Virus record (IMG/VR): IMGVR_UViG_3300030060_002291
Span: 1-47,495 of that record
DNA length: 47,495 nucleotides
Strand: one strand, 5' to 3'
DNA from: a virus
The position numbers were made by a program, and so were the translations under genes. The notes under the pieces are model-generated. The model had not been told where the DNA came from. It was given only the letters and a program-made list of their open reading frames with translations, and did not search any database. Each line of letters opens with the position of its first letter. The first letter of the stretch is position 1. Shown in pieces: positions 3,698 through 33,058 of the stretch.

Positions 3698-3901
3698 ATG
3701 GCTAAAGAAAAAAAAGAACAAGTGAATCTTAAACAAGATGCTGATATCAAAATGAATACTTTGGTTGAACAGCACAATGAACTTGTGAAGGATATACAAG
3801 AAGCTAACGGTAGATTAGCTGAGTTAAAACAAATGATTATTGAGCATCAAGGATATATAAAAGGCCTTGAAGCTTGTGATGAAAACTGTGAAAAGGAGTA
3901 A
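3698..3901 (+). CDS. Small coiled-coil protein (67 aa)
   Basis: Almost entirely helical and charged, with heptad-like leucines in NELVKDIQEANGRLAELKQM. It ends with an acidic cysteine pair (CDENCEKE). AGGAG precedes the ATG. It could oligomerise through the coil and bind metal or form a disulfide through the two Cys. No known family recognised. Confidence 0.7.
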   Translation: MAKEKKEQVNLKQDADIKMNTLVEQHNELVKDIQEANGRLAELKQMIIEHQGYIKGLEACDENCEKE

Positions 3902-3904
3902 CAA

Positions 3905-4063
3905 ATGGGACCAATATTAGGTAAAGTTCTTACAAGTTTAGGAACAGAAAAACTTATTAAAGCGATCATAATGCATTTAGGAGATTGGCTAGTACTTAAA
4001 TCTTCTAATAAATTAGACGATAAGCTTTGGGCTGAAGTTAAAAAAGCATTAGATAAAAAATAG
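3905..4063 (+). CDS. Small amphipathic helical protein (52 aa)
   Basis: MGPILGKVLTSLGTEKLIKA followed by IIMHLGDWLVLKSSNKLDD and a helical end. GGAG lies upstream, across the end of the previous gene. Hydrophobic and basic residues alternate in a way that suggests two amphipathic helices. A membrane-active or virion role is possible; function unknown. Its stop runs into the AGGAGG site of the next gene. Confidence 0.65.
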   Translation: MGPILGKVLTSLGTEKLIKAIIMHLGDWLVLKSSNKLDDKLWAEVKKALDKK

Positions 4064-4072
4064 GAGGTTTCA

Positions 4073-4840
4073 TTGAAACTAAAAAAACGTGGTATTGTAA
4101 TACCAGACCAGCATTATCCATTAGAAGATAGAGCTGCAATAGAGTGCGTTAAGAAAGCAATATTGAAAATAAAACCTAAGGTGTTTGTAAACTTAGGTGA
4201 TGTAGGGGAATGGGAGTCTGTATCAGCTTGGAGATATAAAGATAAGAAGTTACCACCTTTGGAGTTTCAACTTCCTTTAGTGCAAGAAGATATTAGATTA
4301 GTAAATCAAGGATTAGACGAGTGGGATGAAATACTTAAAAAAGTTGGATGTAAAGAAAAGTATTTATTACAAGGTAACCACGATATCTGGTTGGATAATT
4401 TTGCTAATAAATATCCTTATCTTAATGATTACACATTTTTTAAAGCGTGTAAAATAAAAGAAAGAGGATATAAATACACAGAATACAATTTGCCAATCCA
4501 AGTAGGCAAGTTGGTATTTTTCCATGGTGCGTTTGCTACTACGTATCATGCGAAAAAACATTTAGAAACATACGGTGAAAACGTAATGTATGGACATACA
4601 CACGATTTACAGCGTCATACACTTACCAAGTTAAATGGTAATATCGCTGCTTGGTCGTTAGGATGTTTAAAAGATATGTCACACGAAAGTAACCAATGGT
4701 TAAAAGGTAGACTACATAATTGGGCACACGCATTTGCTGTGGTTGATTGGTTTACCAATGGAGATTTTAAAGTAGAGATTGTAGAAATTGTAGACGGTAA
4801 AACAACATTATGGGGGGATATTATAGATGGAAACAAGTAA
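4073..4840 (+). CDS. Calcineurin-like metallophosphoesterase
   Basis: 255 residues, TTG start 5 bases after a perfect GGAGG. All metallophosphoesterase motifs are present in order: D12-Q-H14, GD43 (LGDVGE), GNHD (101-104), H151 (FFHGAF) and GHTH (174-177). These residues bind two divalent metals and hydrolyse phosphate mono- or diesters. The substrate cannot be told from sequence. It may act on DNA ends, nucleotides or cyclic di-/oligonucleotide signals; the last would be counter-defence and is inference. It is embedded among virion genes and co-directional with them, so it could be made late or even be packaged. Confidence 0.9.
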   Translation: MKLKKRGIVIPDQHYPLEDRAAIECVKKAILKIKPKVFVNLGDVGEWESVSAWRYKDKKLPPLEFQLPLVQEDIRLVNQGLDEWDEILKKVGCKEKYLLQGNHDIWLDNFANKYPYLNDYTFFKACKIKERGYKYTEYNLPIQVGKLVFFHGAFATTYHAKKHLETYGENVMYGHTHDLQRHTLTKLNGNIAAWSLGCLKDMSHESNQWLKGRLHNWAHAFAVVDWFTNGDFKVEIVEIVDGKTTLWGDIIDGNK

Positions 4841-12696: not shown

Positions 12697-15600
12697 ATGG
12701 GATTAGACAGAAGAATACAGCTACTAGAAAGCGCTTTAAATTCTGGTAATTTAGACCAAGATCAGTATTTATTGGGTTTAAAAAAGTTTTACGATAGAAT
12801 TCCTAAGACGTTTGACGCCCGTAGTTTGCGTCATATGGAATCAAAACTAGTTGATGCAGGCTTACCCCTTACTGATGGAAGACAAGGCCAATCTGACGGT
12901 CTTTTAGCACAAGTTACATCTGGACTATTAGAGGGTTTTACTACCTTTGGATTTGCAGACGAACCTGATACTTCTACTGAAAAGATAGCAAATTCATTAT
13001 CTCATTTAGTTGGATTAGCACCTGGTGTTGTTATGCAAGCTATGAGTGGTGGTGCTTCTGCTACTGCTTTAGTTGCTAGAGGTTTAAGAAGACAAGCAAA
13101 GTCTAGAGGTATAACGCAATTTGATACTGTAGCAAATAGGCTAGATGATGTAGGTAAATCATTACAATATTCTAATAATAAAGTTGCTCGTGGATTTACA
13201 AAACTTACAGAAAAATTACCAGGTGGTAAAGCGTTTAGATCCCCTATGCCTGTAGGTGTAGATACTGTAACAGGAGAAAAATTATATGGTTTACAATCTT
13301 TACCTGGTATTGCTGCTAGTTTTGTACAAAAACAAAGTACAAACTTTTTAAAAGATAACAATATACAAGCTGCTAGTTTTATACATAAAAATGTATTTAA
13401 AAATAGATTTATGAGTGCAGAAACTCGTGACAATATTGTAAATCAATCTGTCCATTTAGGATTATTATTAGGTGCATCTGCTAGAGAGCAAGGTGTAGCA
13501 GGTATGGGTCAAGCAGCTGTATCTGGCGCTATTGCTGGTGGTATTTTTGGAGGTATTGGTGAATATGCAAACATAGGTAGAATGTTGTCTAGTAGCAATG
13601 TTGGTGTTAGAACTGCTGGAGAAAAAATTGTAAGAGGATTTGCTAAAGCATTAAAAGAACAACCTAATCGTAGAGATCAATTTGAAACAATTAACTTTCT
13701 TATGAAAGGTACTGCTGGTGCAGCGTATGGTACTACTACTGCTAAGTTACACAATATGCCTTTAGAAGATCAAATATATGAAACGTTAATGGCTGTGTTC
13801 TTTTCTGTTAATAGTAGAGCATCTTTTGAGAATAGAGCTACTAGAGATATATTTAATTCAGAAAAAATAATACCAAGAGATTTAAAAATGAAAGAAGCAC
13901 GTAAGTGGCTAACTCAACAACCTTGGTATCAAAATGAATCTTCTGCATATAAAACATATTGGAGCAGGTATTTAAAAGATATACAGCGTCAACAAATGGA
14001 TTATGTAACACAAAACTATTATGACATTGTTGCTATACTTGCACCGCAATACAAAGCATTAAAAGAACAAGGTTTAATTACTCCTGAAATGGAAGCTAAA
14101 GCTAAAACTGATTCTAAAACAAGACAAGATTTATTAGAAAAATTATATGAAGCAGCAGAACGTACAGAAAAAAGTTATGAAGATTTATATAATAAAGATC
14201 AAGTAGAACAAGAAGTAGCTAAAAAAGAATTTGAGTTTTCTTCTATTGAAATGGATAAAGAGGTTAGATATATAGAACAAGATACTTCTTTAGCTAGTGA
14301 ATACTTACCTAAGCAACGTTCATTGAAAGGTATTTTTATAGACATAAAACGTAAAGGTACTCCAAAAGCAAAAGATTTAGATGTACAAGAATTACATCAA
14401 TTATTTAAAAAGAAAGCTATTGATAACAATTTTGTTCCTGATTTATTTATTAAACAAATAGAAAAAGATTATAGTATTAAAGTTACTCCCGAACAAACAA
14501 GAGATTTGCAACAAGCAATACATAAATATAAACATTTAGATAAATTTAAAATATCTAGAATTTATATAGTTCCTGAAGTAACTGAAAAAAGATTAAAAGA
14601 ACGTAAGAACACAGAACCTGTATTTGAGAAAGAAGCGCCAGAAGTAGATATATATAACAAACCTATTGGCGGTAAAAAGTCTGGTACTAAAGAAGATCAA
14701 GGTAGTCGTATTAATAAAATATATGCTAATAAAAATGAACAAATACATTTAGATATAGACTATTTAACTACTGTTATATCTTCTAGATATTTTGATGCTA
14801 CATCTGGTAAATATAAACCTGGTTCTGAAATAGGTAATGTATCTCCATTAGGTATTGATATATTTGCTTTTCCTAGTAAAAAATCTAAAGACCCTGTAAA
14901 TGCATCTAGATTTATGACTGATAAACAACTTGAACAAATACAAGAAGGTTTAAGTAAAGATGGTTTATATATACACGCAGCAGTTAGCGATACTGGTAGA
15001 TTGCAAGTAAGAGCATATCCTTGGTCTACAAAAAAGAATACTACTAACTATTTAAACGATAAAGATTTAAAAAAAATAGACAGAGCTATACGTAAAGGTG
15101 ATTATTTTGAAGAAAAAATACCAACTGATCCTAAGAAATATAAAGAGAATGTTGCTTTTGTAATTTGGAGAATGAAAGAATTAAATTTATTAGATGAAGT
15201 AAGTAAATATAAATATAGCAATACAGGAGGATTTGAAGTTTCTACAAAAGGAAATTTTCTTGGAAAACAATTTAGTGCTTTAAATGCTAGGTTGAAAGAT
15301 GGTAGAACTATTGAAGAAGCTTATCAACAAGCTAAAGGAACAGGAAAAGGAAAACCAGCTAAAGACCCTAATTTTGATTACTATGGAACTTATAAAAGCT
15401 TGTGGAAACAATGGGCAAAAGAAAATCCTGGAAAAATAAAAGAACTTAAAGATTTTTTAGATAAAAATAATATCACAACATTAACCGATAGATTTGCAAC
15501 TACAGAAAATAGACAAGATAGAGCAATAGTTGAAATACTGAACGAACAAACAACCTTTAATAAAGAATATACAGTAGATAATATTATAGAAAAGTTACCT

Positions 15601-18600
15601 CAATATTTAAACTCAGAACCTTATACTGATGTTACTAAAATGCAAAAATATACAAAACATATGACAGGTGTAGAAGTTCCTATTGATAAAGAATTTATTA
15701 AAGATGAATACATTCATGTAGTAGCATCAGATCTTGATGGTAGTATTAAAGGCCTTGGTAAAGCTATGGAAAAATTTAATTCAGGAACAGACGGTGGTAG
15801 TTTATTAAGAGCTGCAAAGTTTGATAGACTTGCAGAAGCATACGGATTAGATCCTGAAACTGGTGTTATTAAAACAATACACTTACATAGACCTGGCAAG
15901 TTTGAAGACGGAACTAACCGTGGCACTGTTATTATTAAAACTGCTACATTTAGAATGCCACCTGATATGGAAAAAAGTATAGATTTATATGAAAAACAAA
16001 ACAATGAAAAAAATCCTATTGATTATATTCATTATGATACATCAGTTAAAGAGTACAGTGGAAAAAAAAGACCTGTATTTGAACCAAATACTATGAGTGT
16101 CAATATAACCTTGAAGTCTACATGGAAATCAAAATTAGAAGACAATTATATTAATTTAGATGTATATGAGAATTTTAACAAATTAGAAAAATTAAAATTA
16201 TTACGACAAGTTACTTCTAATTTAAATACCATAGACTTTGACCCTAGCACTTCAGAAGGTGCTTTATTTTGGAAAGAATGGGCTACCATTATTAACAAGT
16301 CAGCAAGAGGAGATAAAGATGCTAACTTGCAGGTAGAAACAGCTTTTAAAAATAATCAACCTATACCAGATAAGATAGACATAGACTCTATAGATATACG
16401 TTTTATTGGAGATGTGTTTTATAATAGTCCTGATAGTATTACAGCTAGAAGTTTATTACGTAAATTATTTAATAATGATAGAAATGCTGAACGTGATAGA
16501 AAAATAGAACAATCATTTAATGACTATGGCATTGAAACATATAACAAACAATTAATTGAAGATTATTTAATTAGTACAAATTTTGAACCTGGTTCATATA
16601 TGCGACCAGGTGTATTAGATTTTATTAACGAATCTATTTCTACTTATATGTTTAAAAGACTTACTAGACCAATCGTAGAAGAATCGTTTAGTTCTAAATT
16701 GGGTTTATATGATGCGCTTATTAGAAACAAAAAACAAACATACAGTAAAGCATCAAAAGGTTTAGCAAACAATGAGTTTATGTTGTATGAAGGTGCTAGA
16801 GAAATTCCTATTACAGACCCTCTTACTAACAAGAAAACAACATTAGGAAAATTCTGGGATAAGTTTGAAAAAGAATATGCAAAAGATCAATCTTCTGAAA
16901 CATTTAAAAAACTAGACGAGGCACGCAAAAATATTATGTATATACGTTCACCTATGGTAAGTAACAGTGGTGTCCGTATAGGTACCTTTGTGGGTTTTTT
17001 AAAGGGTAGGAAAGGACTATCACTAGTATCAAATGAGTTAAATGACTTTTATATGAATGGTGCTGATAAAGATATTGACTCAGCACATGTATTTTGGAGT
17101 ATGCCTAAGGATGTAACTAAAGCATATAATAAAACATCTATACAACGTGGACTAGAACGTGATGGCGAAATGATTGGATTAGACGATCCTGTTATTGCTA
17201 AAGAGTTAGCTAATGCAAAATTTCCAGAAGCACAAACACGTGGTCAGCAATTAGCTGATATGATAAGTGTTAATTCTAAAATTAAAAATGGTATCTTTAG
17301 TGCTATAGGTAAAGATAGTGTTGGATATATTACCAATCAGTTTCAGATAGCTAAATTAGAAATGGACCTTATAAGCCAACGTGGATTGTTAAAAGATAAA
17401 CAACTTTGGCAAGATTTAAATATAGATCAAAACGTTGTACAAAGTACCTTTATTGATGCTAATAAACTATTAGATGTAGATTTACCTTCTGGTACTACAC
17501 AAAGAGTAAGAAAAAAATATAAAGAAAGTTTATTAGATAAAGAAGAAAGATTAGTGTTGCGTGATATGTATAAGTTAGTATTTAGTAAGGTACGTAAAGG
17601 TGAAGAACCATTGGATGCTGAAGTAGTATCTCAAGAATATTTAACAATGACTGAGGGTACTACGGGTTATATGAGATTAATAGCACAAGAATTATCTGGA
17701 TTAAAAATGGAAATAAATCCTTATAACGTTATAGACAAAGAAGCTGTAATACCTATGTTAAAAGATTTATCTGCAGTTATGAAAGACCACCCTTTGTTTA
17801 AACGTGCTAATTTAAGAAAATTTGATGAATGGTTTATGGAAGGCATAGATGCAAAAGAGTTTGACACTATTAATAACTATCCTCCATTTTTGTGGAACAA
17901 AGTTAGTGGTATTGTAGACTTGTCTAGTGCTTTAAAGAAAGCACAAACGTTTAAAGATCACGCTGTAAAGAATTTAGATATGGACCCGCAGCAAGTTGAT
18001 AAGTTTATTGTAGATGTTATTGAAACAACATTTGAGCAGCGTAATAAAATATATCAAGCGTTTGATAGAAACAGACAGTGGTATAAAAAACAAAACACTA
18101 GAAGCTATGGTGATCAAATATTATTTACAAAAGAATCATTAAAAGAACAGTTGGAAGTACTATCTAATGCTAGAAAAAATATTGGTAAACCTTTAAATCC
18201 ATTAACTAAACGTTTAGTAGAAGATTTGTTTGATGTATTTTATATAGCTAATCCTGTGTTAGATTTAAACTTTACTGGATTTAGAGGTCAAAAAAGATTT
18301 CAATTTTTAGAAAATGTTAACGCTGCAATAGATGCGTTAGTAAAAGATAAAGCAGAATTTGAAAAGTTAAATAAAGGTTCTGAAGAATTTCCTAATCAAT
18401 CTAAATTAGAAGATTTGTATGAACAAAGAGGTGCACTACAAAGAGAGTTTGTAGGATCGTTGCCAGATTTAGAACAAACTTGGTCTATAAAAGCTCGTAA
18501 TAAACAGTATATGGCTAGAGAAAGATACAATACATTGCTAGAAGTATCTAAAGAAAAACAAGAAAGAATAGAAAAATTTAAAAAAGATTTTGATTATGAT

Positions 18601-21600
18601 AATATTATGGACTATATAATGGAAGATATTACGCCTCCATCTAGTTCTATGGCTTCAGAACCAGTTGTTATAGATCCTGCTAAACCAGCAGTTAATAAAA
18701 CAAAACAAATGATTCCTGATTTTATTCCTATAGATATTTTAACTGATCCTAAAGCGTTAAATGCTTTAATTATTAGGTCAGAAAAAATTGCTAAAAATCA
18801 GACGCCTTTTATAAAAGAATATATTGCTAGACTTGGAGATGTTGTACAGTATCAAATAGCTAATGGTAATCCTGACATACTTTATAATATGTCCAGTCTT
18901 TACTCTTTATTTTTTCAAAGAGCAGACAGAACAATTGATTTAATACAAGATGTATCTGGATTAAGATTAAAATATTTTGTTAATCATATGGAAAATGTAT
19001 ACGGTCCTTCTGATGCTTATAATCAAATAAAAAGAAATAAACAAATGATTAATCAGGCAGAAAAAGAATTATACGTAGATATAAGCCAAGAAGTTCCTTT
19101 AAAAACATTTGTGCAATATGCTAAAGAAAATAATGTCTTTACAAAAATGTTAAAAGATAAAGAGTTGTTTAGAAAAACAAACAATGAATATCGTAAATAT
19201 GTATTAGAGTGGGCAGACAAAAACGAAGGATCATTAACAAAGTTAGCAGATAATACAATAGGAAAACTATTTAAAGACGCAGATGCTGTTGTATATGGAT
19301 ATAATAAAAAGAGTGAAACTATTATACCTTATAAAAATCAAGGTGCTTTAGAAAAAGATATGAAGAAGAATCCTTTGATAGAACAAATTAATCATAATAC
19401 TTTATCTAAAGTTGTTACAGATAAAATAAACTTTATGTTTCCTTTAGATGCTAATATGCGTAGTCCTGAATGGTTTGACCAAATTACAGGAATATTTCAA
19501 AGATTAGATAAATTAATTGCACCGTACGAAAAAAGATTTCAGTTAGATAGAGGTATAAAATTTAATCCAAAGACTAAACAATTAGATGAATATGGTATTT
19601 TAGTACCTACCTCTACTTTAAAAACTATTACAGAAACTATTTATACAAATCATAGTATTGCTAATCAGTTAAAAGATTTTAATTCAACTATGATTGGGTT
19701 TTATAAAAAAACATTAAACATAAAACAAAAAGGTTATAAAGATAATCAAGATGTTTTATGGGAAGTAGCTGTATTACGTCACGTATTAGGACAAGAAGGA
19801 CTTGGTCCTAAAAAGAAAAATACTTTAATGGAAGAACGATTGCAGCTACAAAAAGATTTAGATTCTGCTGAGTTAAAGTTAAAACAAATAACTAAAGATT
19901 TATATTACACAGACAAAAAAGGCAATCAACAGTTTGTTAGTCCTTCTAAGTATGTTGATATTATTAAAGATCAGGTAATACAACCTGTTATGGATTTTGC
20001 TTTAAAAACTGTAATTGAAAGTAATTATAAAAACATTGAACAAGTATTCAAAGATACTGTTTATAAAAAAGAATATAAACCAGCTAAGACATTTTTACCT
20101 AACAGTCCTTTCTTTTACCAACAAAGATTAGCTGAAATGTTTTATAATAAGAATGGATTAATTAGTCCTGCTAGATTAATTGCATATGATAAAGCTATTA
20201 GGTTAAAACAAGATACAGTTTCTGGTGCTGAAATATTACGTAATCATTTTCATTTAGATGATATACAATTTATTAAATATAGTTTAAATGTTAGAGAGCA
20301 TATTAATAATAAATATTCTAATTATTTAAATAAAGCAGGTGAAATAAATTGGAGTCTTGTTGATAAAACATTAATAGAGGGCAGTCGTAAACGTACTGTA
20401 GGAGATCAGATACGTTCTGAAATACAATCTATTATGAAGAAAATGGATGCAAGACAAATAGAAGTTGGTAAGTTTAAACACCAGAATGAGTCTTCACAGT
20501 TTTGGCCTTATATGGGTTCTTTCCTAGTTAAAGAAAATTATCAAAAAATTATTAATGAATATCTACCTCAAGAAAAACAACGTATTATGGAAAAATCTGT
20601 AGATCAATTGTTAAATAAAAATGATGCACAAGAAGTTGCAAATAAACAATTATCATTAGAAGATGCTAGAATGTTAGAGTATATAAGATTAGAAAATAGT
20701 ATTAAAGAAGTAAATACCTATGAAAATCCTTTCTTAGATAAAGATGCGATAGATATGTTAAATCAAGTATCTACTAGAAAAGATCGTGTAATATATCCTG
20801 GACAAGGTATGTCTACACACGCACGTTCAAGACTTGAAAGAGCATTACCATTTTTTAGAACTGATGGTAATGTTCCTTTAGATTATATGAACAGTATAAC
20901 TAGAGGTCTTACGCAAAACATTTCTGCGTTATATAGTAGAATATACTTAGAAACTTTTTTAAGACAAGGTAGACAAAACGAACAAATGACCGATGTTATA
21001 GATCAATGGCATAGTACTTTATTAGATTTTACCAAAGGTTATATGGGTCATCCATCTACAAGAGATATTGAAGCACACGGTTTTGGTAAAAAAGATTATG
21101 AGTTATTAAAAGAGTGGAAAGAAGCTGACTATGCACAATCTTGGAAATATGGTAAACTAAATAATGTTCAAAAGAAATTATTGTTTGATATGGAACAAGC
21201 AGCAATACCTTCTATGAATGAACAACGTAGTAAACGTAAAGAATTATTTGCTGACCAAATTAAAAAACGTGGTAAAGAAATAAAAAATATGACCAAGGAA
21301 AAACGTGATGAATTTATTGTAGAAAAAATTACACCAAAAATTAAAAAAGATTTTACTGTTTGGATGGCTGAAAGCACACAAAAAAATCTTGATGCATTAA
21401 TTGTTCCTGGGAATATTGATAAATTAAAAATTAGATACACACCTAGACAATGGTTTAGTGATGAATCCGTAGGTAATTTTTTATTACGTATAGAAGAAAA
21501 TGCTAATAAAGTATATGGTAAAGCTACTAAGACTTTATTAGGTAAAGAAAAACAAATGTTCCAAAGCTTGCCTGAAGATCCAGCAGCAAGACATAAAGCT

Positions 21601-22917
21601 ATGGTTGATATGGCAACACACGTTAGCGATCTTGAAGGTAAGTTTGAAGTATGGAGTTTGTTATTCCACCCTAAGGCAGCTATTACCAATACGTATGGTG
21701 GTTATCAAAACATTATTACCGATACTGGTTTTGAACATTTCTATAATGCTTTTAGAGAAAAGTATTTAGTAGAAAAAATATTTGCTGGTAAAACATTTAG
21801 AGTGTACGATCCTAAGACTAAAACATTCCAAGACATTGAATTGAATAGTATGAGTCGTATACATAGAATGATTGATAGTTTAGGTTTACTTGAAGGTAAC
21901 TTGTTACAAGAATTAACATATTTAACAGCTAAAGAACCTGCTAATGTTAAATTGTTTATGAGAGATTTAGTTAGAAGAGTTACTCAATACACTAAACGTA
22001 ATAAACTTTATGGTAATGATAAGGAAGTAAATGAAAAAATTGATAATTATGTTAAAGAAACTATTACAGAATTAGCAGAAAAGCATAATGTAAGTAGTTC
22101 AGCTATGGAAATTGGTAGTGTGTTTATGTCATCTACAGAAAAACATTTAAGACGTAAAGCGTTTTTAGCACACTATTTGAAAGCAAGAGAAATATATTCA
22201 GACTCTAAAGGTAATATAAAAGTTACTGATGAATTTTTAGTGAATAGTGCCAAGAAAGGCGTAGAAGGTTCCCAGTTTATTTATCACGCTACATACAGAC
22301 CAAACTTTAGTAACACTGCATTTGGTCGTGTTATGACACGTTTTCAACCATATATGTGGAATAGTATTAGACGTAGAAAACAGATCTTCGAAGACATGAT
22401 GGCAGTAGAAGGGCATCCTAACTTTGAAGTTACTAAACGTTTTGAAAGGCAGATAGCTAATGACACTATGACTATGGCACTTGCGTCATTGTTTGCGTAT
22501 AGTATATTTGAATATGCTTTATCTCCACCTATGAATATAATGAAAGATACAGCTGAGTTTTTATTCGGTGATGAGAAAACAAGAGAGCGTGCATTCTTTA
22601 ATCAGTATCCTATACAAGCATTAGCACCAGCACAAATAATAACACCGCCTGCAGCAAGGTTTATATTACCACATGTCAATGCATTAATTGATGGTAGTTA
22701 TGAAGCATTCTGGCAGTATTCAGCGTGGACTTATTTACCTGGTGGTAGATTGATAAGAGATATACACAAGACTGTGAATAGACCTGACTATCAACCATTA
22801 GGTGAAGCTATTATAGAACGTACAAGTGGTATTCCTATCAGATCACATAAGTGGTATAGACAACGATTAGAACGTGAACAACGTAATCGTGAAACTATGT
22901 TAGAAAACTTAGAGTAA
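12697..22917 (+). CDS. Giant virion protein, 3406 aa (polyvalent/ejection type)
   Basis: One uninterrupted frame of 10.2 kb, over a fifth of the genome. Small-residue hydrophobic stretches occur near residues 100-130 (LVGLAPGVVMQAMSGG) and 254-290 (GAIAGGIFGGIGEY); the middle ~2600 residues are polar, helical, Lys/Glu-rich. The C-terminal ~400 residues (TRFQPYMWNSIRRRKQ, ASLFAYSIFEYAL) resemble the end domain of giant 'large polyvalent proteins' in podoviruses and crAss-like phages. Expected role: carried in the capsid and ejected into the host with DNA. I found no RNA polymerase, protease, methylase or transglycosylase signature by eye. The translation signal is weak: the ATG lies one base after the previous stop. 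A terminator hairpin follows at 22934. Confidence 0.75.
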   Translation: MGLDRRIQLLESALNSGNLDQDQYLLGLKKFYDRIPKTFDARSLRHMESKLVDAGLPLTDGRQGQSDGLLAQVTSGLLEGFTTFGFADEPDTSTEKIANSLSHLVGLAPGVVMQAMSGGASATALVARGLRRQAKSRGITQFDTVANRLDDVGKSLQYSNNKVARGFTKLTEKLPGGKAFRSPMPVGVDTVTGEKLYGLQSLPGIAASFVQKQSTNFLKDNNIQAASFIHKNVFKNRFMSAETRDNIVNQSVHLGLLLGASAREQGVAGMGQAAVSGAIAGGIFGGIGEYANIGRMLSSSNVGVRTAGEKIVRGFAKALKEQPNRRDQFETINFLMKGTAGAAYGTTTAKLHNMPLEDQIYETLMAVFFSVNSRASFENRATRDIFNSEKIIPRDLKMKEARKWLTQQPWYQNESSAYKTYWSRYLKDIQRQQMDYVTQNYYDIVAILAPQYKALKEQGLITPEMEAKAKTDSKTRQDLLEKLYEAAERTEKSYEDLYNKDQVEQEVAKKEFEFSSIEMDKEVRYIEQDTSLASEYLPKQRSLKGIFIDIKRKGTPKAKDLDVQELHQLFKKKAIDNNFVPDLFIKQIEKDYSIKVTPEQTRDLQQAIHKYKHLDKFKISRIYIVPEVTEKRLKERKNTEPVFEKEAPEVDIYNKPIGGKKSGTKEDQGSRINKIYANKNEQIHLDIDYLTTVISSRYFDATSGKYKPGSEIGNVSPLGIDIFAFPSKKSKDPVNASRFMTDKQLEQIQEGLSKDGLYIHAAVSDTGRLQVRAYPWSTKKNTTNYLNDKDLKKIDRAIRKGDYFEEKIPTDPKKYKENVAFVIWRMKELNLLDEVSKYKYSNTGGFEVSTKGNFLGKQFSALNARLKDGRTIEEAYQQAKGTGKGKPAKDPNFDYYGTYKSLWKQWAKENPGKIKELKDFLDKNNITTLTDRFATTENRQDRAIVEILNEQTTFNKEYTVDNIIEKLPQYLNSEPYTDVTKMQKYTKHMTGVEVPIDKEFIKDEYIHVVASDLDGSIKGLGKAMEKFNSGTDGGSLLRAAKFDRLAEAYGLDPETGVIKTIHLHRPGKFEDGTNRGTVIIKTATFRMPPDMEKSIDLYEKQNNEKNPIDYIHYDTSVKEYSGKKRPVFEPNTMSVNITLKSTWKSKLEDNYINLDVYENFNKLEKLKLLRQVTSNLNTIDFDPSTSEGALFWKEWATIINKSARGDKDANLQVETAFKNNQPIPDKIDIDSIDIRFIGDVFYNSPDSITARSLLRKLFNNDRNAERDRKIEQSFNDYGIETYNKQLIEDYLISTNFEPGSYMRPGVLDFINESISTYMFKRLTRPIVEESFSSKLGLYDALIRNKKQTYSKASKGLANNEFMLYEGAREIPITDPLTNKKTTLGKFWDKFEKEYAKDQSSETFKKLDEARKNIMYIRSPMVSNSGVRIGTFVGFLKGRKGLSLVSNELNDFYMNGADKDIDSAHVFWSMPKDVTKAYNKTSIQRGLERDGEMIGLDDPVIAKELANAKFPEAQTRGQQLADMISVNSKIKNGIFSAIGKDSVGYITNQFQIAKLEMDLISQRGLLKDKQLWQDLNIDQNVVQSTFIDANKLLDVDLPSGTTQRVRKKYKESLLDKEERLVLRDMYKLVFSKVRKGEEPLDAEVVSQEYLTMTEGTTGYMRLIAQELSGLKMEINPYNVIDKEAVIPMLKDLSAVMKDHPLFKRANLRKFDEWFMEGIDAKEFDTINNYPPFLWNKVSGIVDLSSALKKAQTFKDHAVKNLDMDPQQVDKFIVDVIETTFEQRNKIYQAFDRNRQWYKKQNTRSYGDQILFTKESLKEQLEVLSNARKNIGKPLNPLTKRLVEDLFDVFYIANPVLDLNFTGFRGQKRFQFLENVNAAIDALVKDKAEFEKLNKGSEEFPNQSKLEDLYEQRGALQREFVGSLPDLEQTWSIKARNKQYMARERYNTLLEVSKEKQERIEKFKKDFDYDNIMDYIMEDITPPSSSMASEPVVIDPAKPAVNKTKQMIPDFIPIDILTDPKALNALIIRSEKIAKNQTPFIKEYIARLGDVVQYQIANGNPDILYNMSSLYSLFFQRADRTIDLIQDVSGLRLKYFVNHMENVYGPSDAYNQIKRNKQMINQAEKELYVDISQEVPLKTFVQYAKENNVFTKMLKDKELFRKTNNEYRKYVLEWADKNEGSLTKLADNTIGKLFKDADAVVYGYNKKSETIIPYKNQGALEKDMKKNPLIEQINHNTLSKVVTDKINFMFPLDANMRSPEWFDQITGIFQRLDKLIAPYEKRFQLDRGIKFNPKTKQLDEYGILVPTSTLKTITETIYTNHSIANQLKDFNSTMIGFYKKTLNIKQKGYKDNQDVLWEVAVLRHVLGQEGLGPKKKNTLMEERLQLQKDLDSAELKLKQITKDLYYTDKKGNQQFVSPSKYVDIIKDQVIQPVMDFALKTVIESNYKNIEQVFKDTVYKKEYKPAKTFLPNSPFFYQQRLAEMFYNKNGLISPARLIAYDKAIRLKQDTVSGAEILRNHFHLDDIQFIKYSLNVREHINNKYSNYLNKAGEINWSLVDKTLIEGSRKRTVGDQIRSEIQSIMKKMDARQIEVGKFKHQNESSQFWPYMGSFLVKENYQKIINEYLPQEKQRIMEKSVDQLLNKNDAQEVANKQLSLEDARMLEYIRLENSIKEVNTYENPFLDKDAIDMLNQVSTRKDRVIYPGQGMSTHARSRLERALPFFRTDGNVPLDYMNSITRGLTQNISALYSRIYLETFLRQGRQNEQMTDVIDQWHSTLLDFTKGYMGHPSTRDIEAHGFGKKDYELLKEWKEADYAQSWKYGKLNNVQKKLLFDMEQAAIPSMNEQRSKRKELFADQIKKRGKEIKNMTKEKRDEFIVEKITPKIKKDFTVWMAESTQKNLDALIVPGNIDKLKIRYTPRQWFSDESVGNFLLRIEENANKVYGKATKTLLGKEKQMFQSLPEDPAARHKAMVDMATHVSDLEGKFEVWSLLFHPKAAITNTYGGYQNIITDTGFEHFYNAFREKYLVEKIFAGKTFRVYDPKTKTFQDIELNSMSRIHRMIDSLGLLEGNLLQELTYLTAKEPANVKLFMRDLVRRVTQYTKRNKLYGNDKEVNEKIDNYVKETITELAEKHNVSSSAMEIGSVFMSSTEKHLRRKAFLAHYLKAREIYSDSKGNIKVTDEFLVNSAKKGVEGSQFIYHATYRPNFSNTAFGRVMTRFQPYMWNSIRRRKQIFEDMMAVEGHPNFEVTKRFERQIANDTMTMALASLFAYSIFEYALSPPMNIMKDTAEFLFGDEKTRERAFFNQYPIQALAPAQIITPPAARFILPHVNALIDGSYEAFWQYSAWTYLPGGRLIRDIHKTVNRPDYQPLGEAIIERTSGIPIRSHKWYRQRLEREQRNRETMLENLE

Positions 22918-23052
22918 GTTATCTATTCTACTCAATAAAATTTTCGTCTTATCTTTTTTTGCAGACAAAAATTTTATTTGTTTTTTTAAAAGATTATTAA
23001 TTTCTTTTAATTCATTTTTTATCATTATTAATTCTTTTTTCTGTAACTCCAT
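22909..23052 (-). CDS. Small helical protein (47 aa), last gene of the leftward block
   Basis: MELQKKELIMIKNELKEINN then LLKKQIKFLSAKKDK and an end SRIDNLL: one long charged helix with heptad leucine/isoleucine spacing. AAGGAG lies 6 bases before the ATG, the best evidence that it is real. It is convergent with the giant gene and overlaps its last 9 bases. Its coding sequence also contains the terminator hairpin that serves the + strand. It follows directly after the two large RNA folds at 23066-23371. Confidence 0.6.
   Translation of the reverse strand: MELQKKELIMIKNELKEINNLLKKQIKFLSAKKDKTKILLSRIDNLL
22934..22987 (+). terminator. Rho-independent-type terminator after the giant gene
   Basis: Arms 22934-22944 (AATAAAATTTT) and 22968-22978 (AAAATTTTATT) pair over 11 bp; after one mismatch four more pairs extend the stem (GTCT/AGAC). 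It is followed by TGTTTTTTT. The T-run lies only on the rightward side, so it ends + strand transcription. AT-rich stem, hence moderate strength. Confidence 0.65.
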
Positions 23053-23065
23053 ATTTACTCCTTAG

Positions 23066-23248
23066 ATATTGCAGTACGAATAATTAGGCTTCGCCTCACT
23101 CGTAACATTTGTCGAGTGGTAGGGTACCACGCTCACTCTATCGCTTTCTATGTATAATCATCTATCCTTCGTGTATGTTTTTCTATTCCATACTGTCCTA
23201 TAGCCTTTACTTAATAACGCTTAACGAGGACTATCTATACTGCAATAT
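23066..23248 (-). ncRNA. Candidate structured RNA, element B (183 nt)
   Basis: The ends pair perfectly over 11 bp (ATATTGCAGTA at 23066-23076 with TACTGCAATAT at 23238-23248). Inside are nested local stems: AGGC/GCCT at 23086-23096; CACTCG/CGAGTG at 23097-23118, competing with GTGGTA/TACCAC at 23116-23130; GTATG/CATAC at 23174-23195; and GTCCT/AGGAC at 23197-23231. I see no credible reading frame on either strand. It precedes the 23052 gene on the leftward transcript and may be a leader, a processing unit or an independent RNA. Strand is inferred from neighbours. It matches no RNA family I can recognise. Confidence 0.45.
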
Positions 23249-23260
23249 ATTTTATTTATG

Positions 23261-23371
23261 ATTGCGGCCTAGGTAATAATCTCTATTACACCAAATACGA
23301 AACTACACGGACTAATGTATAGTTTGTTTTAGTAGCCAACCAAGGTGTCTTTTCGAAACCTAGGCCACAAT
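23261..23371 (-). ncRNA. Candidate structured RNA, element A (111 nt)
   Basis: Closed by a 14-bp helix: 23261-23274 (ATTGCGGCCTAGGT) with 23358-23371 (ACCTAGGCCACAAT). The single imperfect pair, 23265/23367, is C-A on the + strand but G-U in leftward RNA. Inside, ACACC/GGTGT (23288-23292 with 23344-23348) encloses a bulged hairpin, AAACTACA at 23300-23307 with TGTATAGTTT at 23316-23325. The motif TTGGTTGGCTAC (leftward sense, 23343-23332) lies within it and recurs at 32212-32201. Starts 6 bases after the stop of the 23377 gene. No coding frame. Confidence 0.5.
23332..23343 (-). repeat. Shared 12-base motif, copy 1
   Basis: Reads TTGGTTGGCTAC leftward; identical to 32201-32212. Both copies lie in structured intergenic RNA. 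Here it is predicted to be in a loop-side region of element A; in the other copy most of it forms one arm of the closing helix. Confidence 0.5.
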
Positions 23372-23376
23372 ATTAT

Positions 23377-23553
23377 TTAATCAGCGCAACTATCACAATT
23401 TTGTGGTCCTTGAACATCACTTATATTTACATCATCGTGATCTAATTTATCTTCAGTTTTTCTCAAAACTTCATTATTACTCTTTTCTTGTTCAAGGATA
23501 ATTTTCTGTGCTATAGATATAATTGCATCTATTTCATTCTTGCTCAAAGTCAT
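23377..23553 (-). CDS. Small acidic protein (58 aa) with CXXC end
   Basis: MTLSKNEIDAIISIAQKIIL, then an acidic stretch (EDKLDHDDVNISDVQ) and the end CDSCAD. AGGAG stands 7 bases before the ATG, and the frame overlaps the resolvase-like gene by 20 bases, as is common in this block. The helical N-terminus plus C-terminal CxxC could bind a metal or a partner. Unknown family. Confidence 0.6.
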   Translation of the reverse strand: MTLSKNEIDAIISIAQKIILEQEKSNNEVLRKTEDKLDHDDVNISDVQGPQNCDSCAD

Positions 23554-23881
23554 CTATATTCTCCTTTTCTATTTGAAGCAATCTTAAGAATCTCTTTAAT
23601 GGTATTATAGCAAGAGCTTCTTTTCTATCCATACGTGTAACAACAGCATCGACATCATCGCCATGATAGTCTGGATACAACCATTGTGCAACTTTCTTTC
23701 TTCGTTTTGCCTGTATTGTTGTATGTTCAACTATTACGTCAACAACTTCTGATTTACCTAACGATCTACCATCGGAAGCATAGGCCCGCTTCGCAGACAG
23801 GCCTATCTTCTTCGCATCGTTTACAATCTCTCTTTCGAGATTATTGCCACGTATTTTATTCTTATGCGTCACTTGCAGCAA
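23534..23881 (-). CDS. Hjc-like Holliday-junction resolvase / PD-(D/E)XK nuclease
   Basis: 115 residues; TTG start at 23881, or GTG at 23872 (no clear SD for either). The pattern follows archaeal-type Hjc: basic RG (R11-G12) followed by LEREIV (E16/E18), then D48 (EVVDVIV) and Q57-A-K59 (TIQAKRRKK). The usual E-x-K is Q-x-K, an accepted variant in this superfamily. Such enzymes cleave four-way DNA junctions symmetrically. A phage that recombines or packages from branched concatemers needs one; the annealing protein and SSB are in the same block. It could alternatively be a different PD-(D/E)XK nuclease. Confidence 0.7.
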   Translation of the reverse strand: MLQVTHKNKIRGNNLEREIVNDAKKIGLSAKRAYASDGRSLGKSEVVDVIVEHTTIQAKRRKKVAQWLYPDYHGDDVDAVVTRMDRKEALAIIPLKRFLRLLQIEKENIDDFEQE

Positions 23882-24128
23882 GATTTGTATTCATCTCAAT
23901 GATGTTAAAATCTTCCTTGTATTTTTCGACAGCTTCTGGAGATTCATCCCAGGATCTAAATCCTGTACTCATCTCTAATGGGCCAACTCGAAAATTAAAC
24001 CACAAGTGATTACCGAAGTTACTATCCATTTTGCTACTAAGTCTAAAGAACTTCAATAGTCTTAGTTCTGCTTTCTGGATATTATTTTTGTCAGTATACT
24101 TCGTTGTTATGAAATGTTTCAGTTTCAT
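23862..24128 (-). CDS. Unknown small protein (88 aa)
   Basis: MKLKHFITTKYTDKNNIQKA, then RLLKFFRLSSKMDSNF, then LWFNFRVGPLEMS and an acidic helical end. GGGAG lies 5 bases before the ATG. It overlaps the primase-helicase end by 38 bases and the resolvase start by 20. Mixed alpha/beta composition; no motif recognised. Its position between two DNA-metabolism genes suggests a replication accessory role. Confidence 0.65.
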   Translation of the reverse strand: MKLKHFITTKYTDKNNIQKAELRLLKFFRLSSKMDSNFGNHLWFNFRVGPLEMSTGFRSWDESPEAVEKYKEDFNIIEMNTNLAASDA

Positions 24129-25932
24129 TATTTCTCCCTATTAGGTTGAATTGCATTGTATTAGTATCAAACGTTGCAGACATTTCGAAACTACCTTCAT
24201 CACGTGATTTTACTGATTGTACTACACGCAATGAATCATCTCTATTACCTTTAATAAGTATTACCTTATCGGCTTTCTGTACTACGTTGCTTGAACCTTT
24301 CAACGAATGCAAGTTAATTACATTATTAGATGCAGACGTTTTGTTTAAGTGATGTATTGCAACTATAATTACATTTGTCTTTTGTGCTATTTGCTTTAAA
24401 GCTCCTATAATTACATTTTGCTTTTCTATTTCACCTTTAACAAAATCTACCTGTATCTCGTCAGTAGTATCGACTACTAAGACCTTAGGTTGGTACTCAG
24501 CTACTACTTTCTTTATTGCATCTATTCTTGGTGCTATTGTCATTACTTGCACATGATCTAGCTTATCCTCTAAAGTAAAGTCTGGATTATTAGTATATTG
24601 TTCCATAATCCATTGTTTATCTTTACCAACAGCTATTTGTGCAAATCGTCTAAATATTAATTGCTCATTCATCTCAAGAGATAAAAACAATGTGTGCTGC
24701 TTTGCCTTGACAATAATGTCTTGTATGAAAGCAGTTTTACCTAAACCAGTATCACCAGAAAATACTACAAGTTCTCCTGGTGCAAAGCTATAAGGTTGAC
24801 ACCCATATATTTTATCTAGCTTGATAGAGTTTTGTGTCAATGTATTTGTAAGATAATCTCTTAATGACAACTCTAGTTCATTAATATTCTTAATGTCTAG
24901 TTTGTAGTCTTTACGTTTATAGTAAATACATTTAGAGTCACAATATTCTGCCATGATGTGATCATCACAACCATATTGATAATTACCTTCATATACATTA
25001 GTTACAGTTCTGGTTACTTCGTCTTGTGACATTTCACCACTACTCCAAGTAAGCATACCATTTAGTGCGACAATGAATGGAATACCAGCACGTTTATATG
25101 TACTAGACATACGCATCATCTTGTTGTTTCTTGCTCCGATATGTGGACCTTCATTAAATATATGTTGCATACACGATACTACTGAACTGACTTCTGAACT
25201 GTTTCTTGTTAAGTCATTCTTAGTAGCTATCGTTTGCGATGCAATAATCATAGATTGTAAATAAGGCTCTACCTTTGGTTCTTTAAATAAAGTTTCAAAA
25301 AAGTTATCTGAATCTTCATTTACCCAATCAAGATAGTTTTCCTTGCTCGATGCATATTTCTCAAGTTTATTCCAAGATAATTCACCTAGTTGTGCCAATG
25401 GTATCCATATTTTATGCAAATGTGTTTTAGGATTTAAAGACCATTTAGTTCTTATTATCCTAGTTTTATCATAGATTGAATCAGCAAAATCAAAGTGTTT
25501 GTTCATAGTAAGTCGTAACTTATCGTGAACAGTGCTACTTTGTTGCAATCCAAACACATTTTTCATTTCTATATGAAAGCCAGTACCACTAAACCATAGG
25601 TTTATGTCTTCTTCCATTACACCCTTATCAAACATTTCTGATAAACACGCTTCTATATATCCAAGCATTTGCTCTTTTGGTATTTCACCTTTATCAACAT
25701 CTAAGATAATATAGTCAATTGCACAAGGACCAGAATAGTTCTTTACAGTTCCTGTGTCTTGTACGTGTTTATCGAATGTTTCATTAAACACAAAGTAAGA
25801 ACGATACATCTCGTTCTTCCAAGAGTTTTCTAATACCAGCTTTTGGTATTTAGAATTAGATACTACATTATTTCTATACTGAATTCCTCCAGTAACTACT
25901 TCTACGAAGCATTGATTTTCTGTATTCTCCAT
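24091..25932 (-). CDS. AEP-type primase fused to RecA-fold (DnaB-like) helicase
   Basis: 613 residues. The N-terminal domain is an archaeo-eukaryotic primase/PrimPol: motif I D78-V-D80 (YIILDVDKG), motif II SGTGFH (115-120) and motif III D151/D155 followed by RIIRTKWSLNPKT (158-170). A linker reads GARNNKMMRM, then has clustered Cys (C322, C331, C335) that may hold zinc or an Fe-S cluster. The C-terminal ATPase has Walker A GDTGLGKT (393-400), a LSLEM element and Walker B VLVVDTTD, like the DnaB/T7 gp4 helicase core. It should lay primers and unwind DNA at phage forks. This is not the DnaG-type fusion of T7. Host polymerase must extend, as no phage polymerase is seen. Confidence 0.9.
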   Translation of the reverse strand: MENTENQCFVEVVTGGIQYRNNVVSNSKYQKLVLENSWKNEMYRSYFVFNETFDKHVQDTGTVKNYSGPCAIDYIILDVDKGEIPKEQMLGYIEACLSEMFDKGVMEEDINLWFSGTGFHIEMKNVFGLQQSSTVHDKLRLTMNKHFDFADSIYDKTRIIRTKWSLNPKTHLHKIWIPLAQLGELSWNKLEKYASSKENYLDWVNEDSDNFFETLFKEPKVEPYLQSMIIASQTIATKNDLTRNSSEVSSVVSCMQHIFNEGPHIGARNNKMMRMSSTYKRAGIPFIVALNGMLTWSSGEMSQDEVTRTVTNVYEGNYQYGCDDHIMAEYCDSKCIYYKRKDYKLDIKNINELELSLRDYLTNTLTQNSIKLDKIYGCQPYSFAPGELVVFSGDTGLGKTAFIQDIIVKAKQHTLFLSLEMNEQLIFRRFAQIAVGKDKQWIMEQYTNNPDFTLEDKLDHVQVMTIAPRIDAIKKVVAEYQPKVLVVDTTDEIQVDFVKGEIEKQNVIIGALKQIAQKTNVIIVAIHHLNKTSASNNVINLHSLKGSSNVVQKADKVILIKGNRDDSLRVVQSVKSRDEGSFEMSATFDTNTMQFNLIGRNNETETFHNNEVY

Positions 25933-29310: not shown

Positions 29311-29336
29311 TTTTTTCTCCTAATTGTTAATATGTT

Positions 29337-29386
29337 CAGAACTGAGGTAGCTGTACACGTGCTCATCTTTGGCTACCTCTATTCTG
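29337..29386 (-). promoter_or_regulatory. Stem-loop I in the 29.3-29.5 kb leader
   Basis: GAGGTAGC (29344-29351) pairs with GCTACCTC (29372-29379), and after a 2x2 internal loop CAGAA (29337-29341) pairs with TTCTG (29382-29386). Lies 27 bases ahead of the 29310 start in leftward RNA. Both strands pair equally well, so sense is assumed from the operon. Confidence 0.6.
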
Positions 29387-29390
29387 ATTT

Positions 29391-29441
29391 AAGTCACTGG
29401 GCATCTACTGGTGCTCTACCATGTATCATCCTATGTGACTT
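29391..29441 (-). promoter_or_regulatory. Stem-loop II in the same leader
   Basis: AAGTCAC (29391-29397) pairs with GTGACTT (29435-29441), 7 bp, loop ~37 bases with weak internal pairing. On the + strand it is followed by TTT, so a rightward terminator role cannot be excluded. A small third hairpin, CAGGA/TCCTG at 29458-29470, follows it upstream in leftward RNA. The whole 180-base gap has no convincing ORF. Confidence 0.5.
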
Positions 29442-29490
29442 TTTGCTACGCAATCATCAGGATATTCCTGTTATCGGACCACCTGACAAA

Positions 29491-31274: not shown

Positions 31275-31301
31275 AGTTTTTTCCTCCAACTATTGTTTAA
31301 G

Positions 31302-31338
31302 TGATAAGCGTGACTATAATCCCAAGCCACGCTTATCA
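31302..31338 (-). promoter_or_regulatory. Perfect 11-bp stem-loop before the MazG-like gene
   Basis: TGATAAGCGTG (31302-31312) pairs with CACGCTTATCA (31328-31338), loop 15 bases. It ends 28 bases before the 31274 start. No U-tract. The rest of this gap, 31339-31402, holds an AGGAGG followed by ATG AGA TAA, a two-codon frame, and no gene I can support. Confidence 0.65.
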
Positions 31339-31402
31339 GATGCATAATTATCTCATTGTTTCCTCCTATTTTATTCTCACTTCATTGAGAACAGAAGTAC
31401 AA

Positions 31403-32824: not shown

Positions 32825-32896
32825 TATTATACCCTCCTTCGGGATTATTTGGTTGTGGGGCACTCACTCGGTAACCCCTAAAAAGGTGCAGCTACG

Positions 32897-32971
32897 TACC
32901 ATTAATGATTGGAATTAAACTTGCCGATAAATGTCAACCAAACTGTAAGATTAATTCCAACATTAATGGTA
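32897..32971. repeat. Long inverted repeat in the divergent spacer (origin/control region candidate)
   Basis: Arm 1 spans 32897-32918 and starts TACCATTAATG; arm 2 spans 32951-32971 and ends CATTAATGGTA. They pair over 21 bp with one bulged base (A at 32908), loop 32 bases. The spacer 32825-33058 separates the leftward early genes from the rightward late genes, so promoters for both, and possibly an origin, must lie here. The loop holds TTGACA on the leftward strand (32935-32940) but no matching -10 at normal spacing. Confidence 0.7.
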
Positions 32972-32978
32972 GGTAGGT

Positions 32979-32990
32979 GGTATATATACC
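32979..32990. promoter_or_regulatory. 12-bp perfect palindrome
   Basis: GGTATATATACC, preceded by AGGTAGGT. A dimeric-regulator site or a TATA-like melting element. 69 bases ahead of the first rightward gene. Confidence 0.45.
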
Positions 32991-33058
32991 TCGTACATAC
33001 AATCTAGTCCTATTTTTTAAAGTATTGTAAGTAGAAATTAAACGCAGTAAGTTATATT

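Follow-up and report, generated by a model that had tools for sequence, protein, structure and literature searches.

The locus studied here raises the question of what two large closed folds represent in a gap that contains no open reading frame. The window, by which we mean the whole stretch of DNA analysed (47,495 bases, linear; IMG/VR virus record IMGVR_UViG_3300030060_002291), encodes a P22-like portal, an SU10-like major capsid protein, a terminase large subunit (PHROG 38) and tail-fibre proteins, and its phage is classed from sequence as an uncultured podovirus-like phage of a marine clade. No relative of its helicase with more than 60% identity was found among 50,697 cultured phage records, and a nucleotide search of cultured phages with the window copy as the query gave no match. 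The surroundings of the gap are as follows:

24091-25932, leftward block: primase-helicase ORF.
23534..23881, minus strand: nuclease-like ORF of 115 aa, PD-(D/E)XK and Hjc-like by eye, the syntenic marker of the locus.
23377..23553, minus strand: 58-aa ORF directly upstream of RNA1, kept in close relatives (tblastn).
23053-23376: non-coding gap between ORFs 23377-23553(-) and 22909-23052(-), holding RNA1 and RNA2 on the leftward strand.
22909..23052, minus strand: 47-aa ORF with a good Shine-Dalgarno sequence, directly after RNA2; in relatives, unrelated genes or nothing stand in its place.

The nuclease-like ORF was 67-94% identical across relatives, its match to Pfam PDDEXK_5 (E of 0.063) lying below the cut-off. 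Convergent with the leftward block, a single ORF of 3406 aa, a predicted protein, occupies 12697-22917; its C terminus is conserved beside RNA1 throughout the clade, and by tblastn it adjoins RNA1 in nearly all loci (with a query from the C terminus, pattern search gave 0 loci and tblastn succeeded). Within the 47-aa ORF, at 22932-22976, an inverted repeat (AATAAAATTTTTGTCT/AGACGAAAATTTTATT) is accompanied by a T-run on the rightward strand and has the appearance of a terminator for the rightward block; its stem covaries in relatives.

The first-pass annotation had reported two closed folds in the leftward strand of the gap, and both closing helices were indeed found there. The elements of RNA1 and RNA2 are the following, L-numbers designating the loci of relatives:

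23261..23371, minus strand: RNA1 (type A), a closed structured RNA with a 14-bp closing helix; folding z of -4.8 when taken alone.
23358..23371, minus strand: 5' arm of the RNA1 closing helix, P1, pairing with 23261-23274 (14 pairs).
23261..23274, minus strand: 3' arm of P1, holding a pair that is G-U only in the leftward RNA.
23324..23343, minus strand: invariant RNA1 core UUGGUUGGCUACUAAAACAA, of which UUGGUUGGC is common to types A and B (alignments of both).
23300..23325, minus strand: type-A hairpin, its loop containing UUAGUC at 23310-23315.
23066..23248, minus strand: RNA2, an optional second structured RNA with homologues in L011/L012, L013, L091, L121, L126 and L190.
23237..23248, minus strand: 5' arm of the RNA2 closing helix, pairing with 23066-23077.
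23066..23077, minus strand: 3' arm of the RNA2 closing helix, pairing with 23237-23248.
23200..23211, minus strand: conserved RNA2 block AGUAAAGGCUAU, present in the window, L012, L013, L091, L121 and L126; L190 has AGUAAAGGAUAU, with one change.
23145..23166, minus strand: invariant RNA2 block GAUAGAUGAUUAUACAUAGAAA, identical in every RNA2 copy and absent elsewhere in the loci collected.

The odd pair of P1 was also confirmed, with U in the 5' arm and G in the 3' arm, the other strand having a C/A mismatch at this position. The arms of RNA2 form 11 pairs (23238-23248 with 23066-23076) plus a twelfth, U-G pair (23237/23077). When the whole gap was folded, z was about -3.2 to -4.0 for the leftward strand and -3.4 to -3.8 for its complement. 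RNA2 taken alone reached a z of only -1.1; folding energy by itself gives it no support, and the case for it is therefore built on its relatives. No promoter or terminator belonging to RNA1 or RNA2 themselves was established in the window, where sites complementary to the UUGGUUGGC loop were at chance level (3 sites). The UUAGUC loop of the type-A hairpin could pair with the ACUAA of the core as a pseudoknot, both being invariant.

Relatives were gathered by helicase searches of 2.9 million viral contigs (L002-L025), and an alignment-based search added L073-L131. In nearly all of them an RNA1-like element is found in the stretch that separates the nuclease-like gene from the convergent giant gene. 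Many of the collected loci are near-duplicates; within this clade of uncultured marine podoviruses, RNA1 fills the homologous position in at least 68 distinct loci, with one copy per genome and a length of about 75-175 nt. Of the 68 distinct sequences, 51 are of type B and 17 of type A, the type of the window. With a covariance model built on type B, 45 loci scored E<0.01; 26 of these were seeds, and L096, L101 and L130, overlooked by the motif search, were among the loci recovered. The model gave no match to the window copy, and the other type-A copies reached E values of 0.9-8, none significant. Both types have in common the locus, the closing helix and the GCAAAUAC...UUGGUUGGC core, which places them in a joint family, the window copy having GACACC where GCAAAUAC is expected. 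The relation between the two types is based on their shared place, their shared core, the RNA1 of L125, which is an intermediate form, and a swap in L023 (see below). When 84,980 genomes of bacteria and archaea were searched by pattern, 49 hits appeared, close to our own chance estimate (∼45), and by eye these had neither the closing helix nor the hairpins. No source of RNA1 other than the clade of uncultured marine podoviruses is therefore known.

P1 varies widely in sequence among lineages, yet it is always paired. Thus, its 39 distinct outer-9-bp helices were 100% paired, compared with 55% when partners were shuffled, with up to four Watson-Crick types per position. Because P1 had been found by complementarity, shuffled flanks were used as a control; the best-stem score across relatives averaged 29.7, against 19.3 ± 2.8 (largest, 33) for the shuffled flanks. 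The helices contained 29 G-U and 5 A-C combinations, both treated alike during selection, and this excess of G-U argues that RNA1 acts as a leftward RNA. Type A consists of P1, a looser AAAUAC/GUAUUU pairing, the invariant UUGGUUGGCUACUAAAACAA and the hairpin with the UUAGUC loop, of which 10 distinct stems were all paired (57% in shuffles), with three to four Watson-Crick types at most positions. For its part, type B carries a hairpin, P2, whose loop hardly varies (UAAAAGG or UGAAGG) and whose stem was 100% paired, with double changes in four of its five pairs; a separate stem count gave 16 distinct stems, 96% paired versus 57%. P3 was only 65% paired on the MAFFT alignment because its two hairpin forms are out of register there, and in register the value rose to 95% versus 64%. 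The P4 element of type B is GCAAAUAC...UUGGUUGGC...GUAU. Taken jointly, P2, P3 and P4 yielded 37 double-change cells, compared with 10.9 in shuffles, and none of the 500 shuffles reached 37; all these shuffle tests ignore phylogeny. A pseudoknot between the P2 loop and J3/4 is suggested by UACAAG/CUUGUA in L074, L099 and L126 and by AUUAG/CUAAU in L097, the shuffle test over all sequences being not significant (10.8 versus 10.5). An open frame ran from end to end of RNA1 in 5 of 67 copies on the RNA strand and in 13 of 67 on the other, and no frame was conserved.

RNA2, about 180-250 nt long, always follows RNA1 where it is present, and takes the place of the short spacer that otherwise separates RNA1 from the start codon. 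The insertion is evident in the close pair formed by L013, with RNA2, and L014, without it. The closing helix measures 12 bp in the window, 16 bp in L091 and 14 bp in L121, and its sequence differs among the three lineages, being swapped for ATTGATATTGTAATGT/GCATTACAATATTAAT in L091 and for ATTAATTGTGGTAT/GTACCACAATTAAT in L121. Similarly, an inner hairpin covaries (GTATG/CATAC in the window versus GTGCG/CGCAC in L012), the inner fold being seen in few lineages. The RNA2 block was not found in bacterial genomes, and hits to it in L240, L071 and L072 were rejected, as the sequence there looks protein-coding. The initial proposal had left a choice between two structured non-coding RNAs and one bipartite RNA. 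The compensatory changes in relatives, together with the lack of a conserved reading frame, agree with the former; the latter did not hold, given that most relatives have RNA1 without RNA2.

Exchange between lineages was followed on a helicase tree of 70 tips. Type A required 2 changes on this tree, compared with 13.7 with random labels, the second change being L023. This locus belongs to a type-B lineage and carries a type-A RNA1 that is 92% identical to that of L014, the helicases of both being only 56% identical; its sisters L123 and L124 (92-93% helicase identity and a similar downstream gene) have type B. Types A and B are therefore exchanged alternatives at one locus. RNA2 was patchy, its 6 holder tips needing 6 changes (shuffled mean, 5.8). 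The window and L013 copies of RNA2 are 98.9% identical, with 78% identity for the helicase and 85% for the nuclease-like gene, which may reflect either a recent transfer or an unusual constraint.

No match to Rfam 15 was obtained at the gathering threshold in the window or in 10 relatives, and relaxing E to 5-10 brought up nothing but weak matches that fell well short of the threshold, e.g., to eukaryotic snoRNA and miRNA families; the earlier statement that no known family is involved thus stands against all 4227 Rfam 15 families, even at permissive thresholds. ARAGORN detected 0 tRNA or tmRNA genes in the window, the GOLLD and ROOL models of Rfam gave no match, and a full-text literature search found no description of either RNA. 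Two resemblances were considered and dropped: one of type B to cobalamin riboswitches (GGAAGC...GUGGUGAAAAUCCAC), which had no Rfam match even at E 5 and whose first part forms a separate closed hairpin, and one of P2/P3 to the D- and T-arm-like hairpins of a tRNA elbow, the P3 loop lacking a T-loop consensus.

Among known systems, GOLLD and ROOL are phage and prophage non-coding RNAs of unknown function, GOLLD often exceeding 800 nt and both often lying near tRNA islands (PMC12286853). RNA1 and RNA2 resemble them as conserved, elaborate phage-encoded folds, some of them marine, found by comparative genomics and without a known protein partner (PMC12286853), but they are much shorter than the usual GOLLD and the window holds no tRNA. 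Racr RNA anti-CRISPRs (PMC10651486) are likewise small phage RNAs for which action in trans is thought, and the allele exchange would be in keeping with such an anti-defence role; however, Racrs mimic CRISPR repeats (PMC10651486), whereas RNA1 and RNA2 are large multi-helix folds. Candidate structured RNAs from marine metagenomes (PMC2864571) came from the same kind of discovery in partly marine and phage sequence, but neither RNA matches any family of Rfam 15. Both families thus appear to be new, phage-encoded structured RNAs being already known as a broad kind.

We propose, at a probability of about 0.5, that RNA1 and RNA2 are two separate phage structured non-coding RNAs, acting in trans and cut from the leftward replication-operon transcript. 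Their structures and conservation are demonstrated by comparison of relatives, at the level of sequence; the mechanism that follows is inferred. Both would be made within that transcript, which host nucleases would trim to the closing helices, releasing stable RNAs. These would then, with about even odds, act in trans, and the invariant UUGGUUGGC loop of RNA1 and the invariant blocks of RNA2 would be the sites at which a partner, of the host or of the phage, binds. The comparison itself shows RNA2 to be an optional module that sits between RNA1 and the following Shine-Dalgarno sequence. That alleles and modules pass between distant phages suggests a partner differing among hosts, for instance host machinery or a defence system, and not the control of one neighbouring gene. 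A more tentative version, with a minority share of our belief, is that of a modular locus in which whole RNAs are inserted, lost or swapped between phages like anti-defence cassettes and act in trans on variable host targets; its members would be RNA1 of types A and B, RNA2, the additional folds of L129 (see below) and perhaps the modules at 29311-29490.

The most probable alternative for RNA1 and RNA2 is a cis-acting, riboswitch-like leader, in which a ligand, a protein or temperature would alter the closing helix and hence access to the Shine-Dalgarno sequence. In agreement with it, a Shine-Dalgarno sequence and a start codon follow 11-20 nt after RNA1 in about 40 loci, and where RNA2 is present it is the RNA2 closing helix that lies near the Shine-Dalgarno sequence. 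However, this sequence is outside the helix, RNA1 is retained even where RNA2 stands between it and the gene, and no riboswitch family matches. In addition, the following genes are of about nine unrelated kinds at the least, from the 47-aa coiled coil to a CxxC mini-protein and a GroES-like chaperonin, with no consistent gene or pathway, and in about a quarter of the loci RNA1 is intact without any following gene. In L129, moreover, RNA1 is placed upstream of the helicase gene and shares a gap of 480 bases with two other closed folds (z of -7.2), and in L022 and L024 the closing helix leads directly into a U-run, as at the end of a transcript. The varied or missing downstream gene, the L129 placement and the U-runs favour free RNAs cut from the operon over a one-gene leader; RNA1 is unlikely to be a dedicated leader or riboswitch, and we regard the cis-acting reading as possible but doubtful.

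A U-run after the helix was also observed in L110, and, with those of L022 and L024, it would suit elements that shield the leftward mRNA at its 3' end against exonucleases and against the rightward transcript that converges on it, with no partner. The usual place of RNA1 at the end of the leftward block and the extra perfect hairpins just upstream of it in L092-L118 point the same way. Still, the invariant unpaired and loop sequences (UUGGUUGGC, UAAAAGG and the RNA2 blocks) exceed what a stabiliser needs, and the L129 copy is upstream of the helicase gene, so that this explanation is unlikely. A position at the end of the leftward block, as first described, is therefore usual but not obligatory, the 47-aa gene following in the window itself. 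An element acting as DNA (cruciform, replication origin or recombination site) would fit the adjoining replication and nuclease-like genes and the recombination of modules at this place, but it is very improbable, since the excess of G-U over A-C in the closing helix is not expected of a DNA hairpin and only one orientation relative to the operon was found. Least probable is a packaging RNA like the phi29 pRNA, which is also a phage RNA with paired ends and internal hairpins; RNA1 is small, closed, phage-encoded and present in single copy, but its fold differs by eye, it is encoded within the replication operon, the terminase large subunit of the window is an ordinary one and no phi29-like genes were seen, and neither Rfam nor its covariance model gave a match.

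GOLLD and ROOL are a long-standing puzzle, to which RNA1 and RNA2 add two small, compact families with strong comparative support. RNA1 is nearly fixed in the marine podovirus clade, and its natural allele swaps hint at what may be selected. Both RNAs are short enough to be synthesised and probed and to serve as bait for binding partners, and models for searches of marine metatranscriptomes can be built from the alignment. Should the RNAs be directed at host defences, the locus would correspond, at the RNA level, to the islands of anti-defence genes.

Several further features were observed around RNA1 and elsewhere in the window. The GroES-like chaperonin that follows RNA1 in many type-B phages is represented by L086:8758-9015 (Pfam Cpn10, E of 1.4e-15). 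The L129 stretch 3860-4340 holds three tandem closed folds, RNA1 included; it comes after a fold whose closing helix of 21-22 bp leads to a U-run. In L092-L118, many of which have no following gene, the perfect hairpin (9-14 bp) ends 2-8 nt upstream of RNA1 and has a different sequence in each lineage; a conserved AGCCACCGAAAAAA stands after RNA1 in these loci, replaced by ACACCAAGG in L116, L117 and L121, and each of the two could pair with part of the UUGGUUGGC loop.

Within the leftward operon of the window, 29311-29490 (minus strand) is a second non-coding structured stretch, with a z of about -5 on both strands and no Rfam family. It includes a module of ∼50 nt (GUCACAUAGGAUGAUACAUGGNAGAGCNCCAGUAGAUGCCCAGUGAC) with covarying ends, 89-98% identical in L014, L087, L116 and L123, and the modules neighbouring it swap between phages. 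A 14-bp hairpin (TGATAAGCGTGGCT/AGTCACGCTTATCA; z of about -4) lies in a leftward gap at 31290-31402, and a long imperfect hairpin, also with a z of about -4, is located between two divergent operons at 32864-33058.
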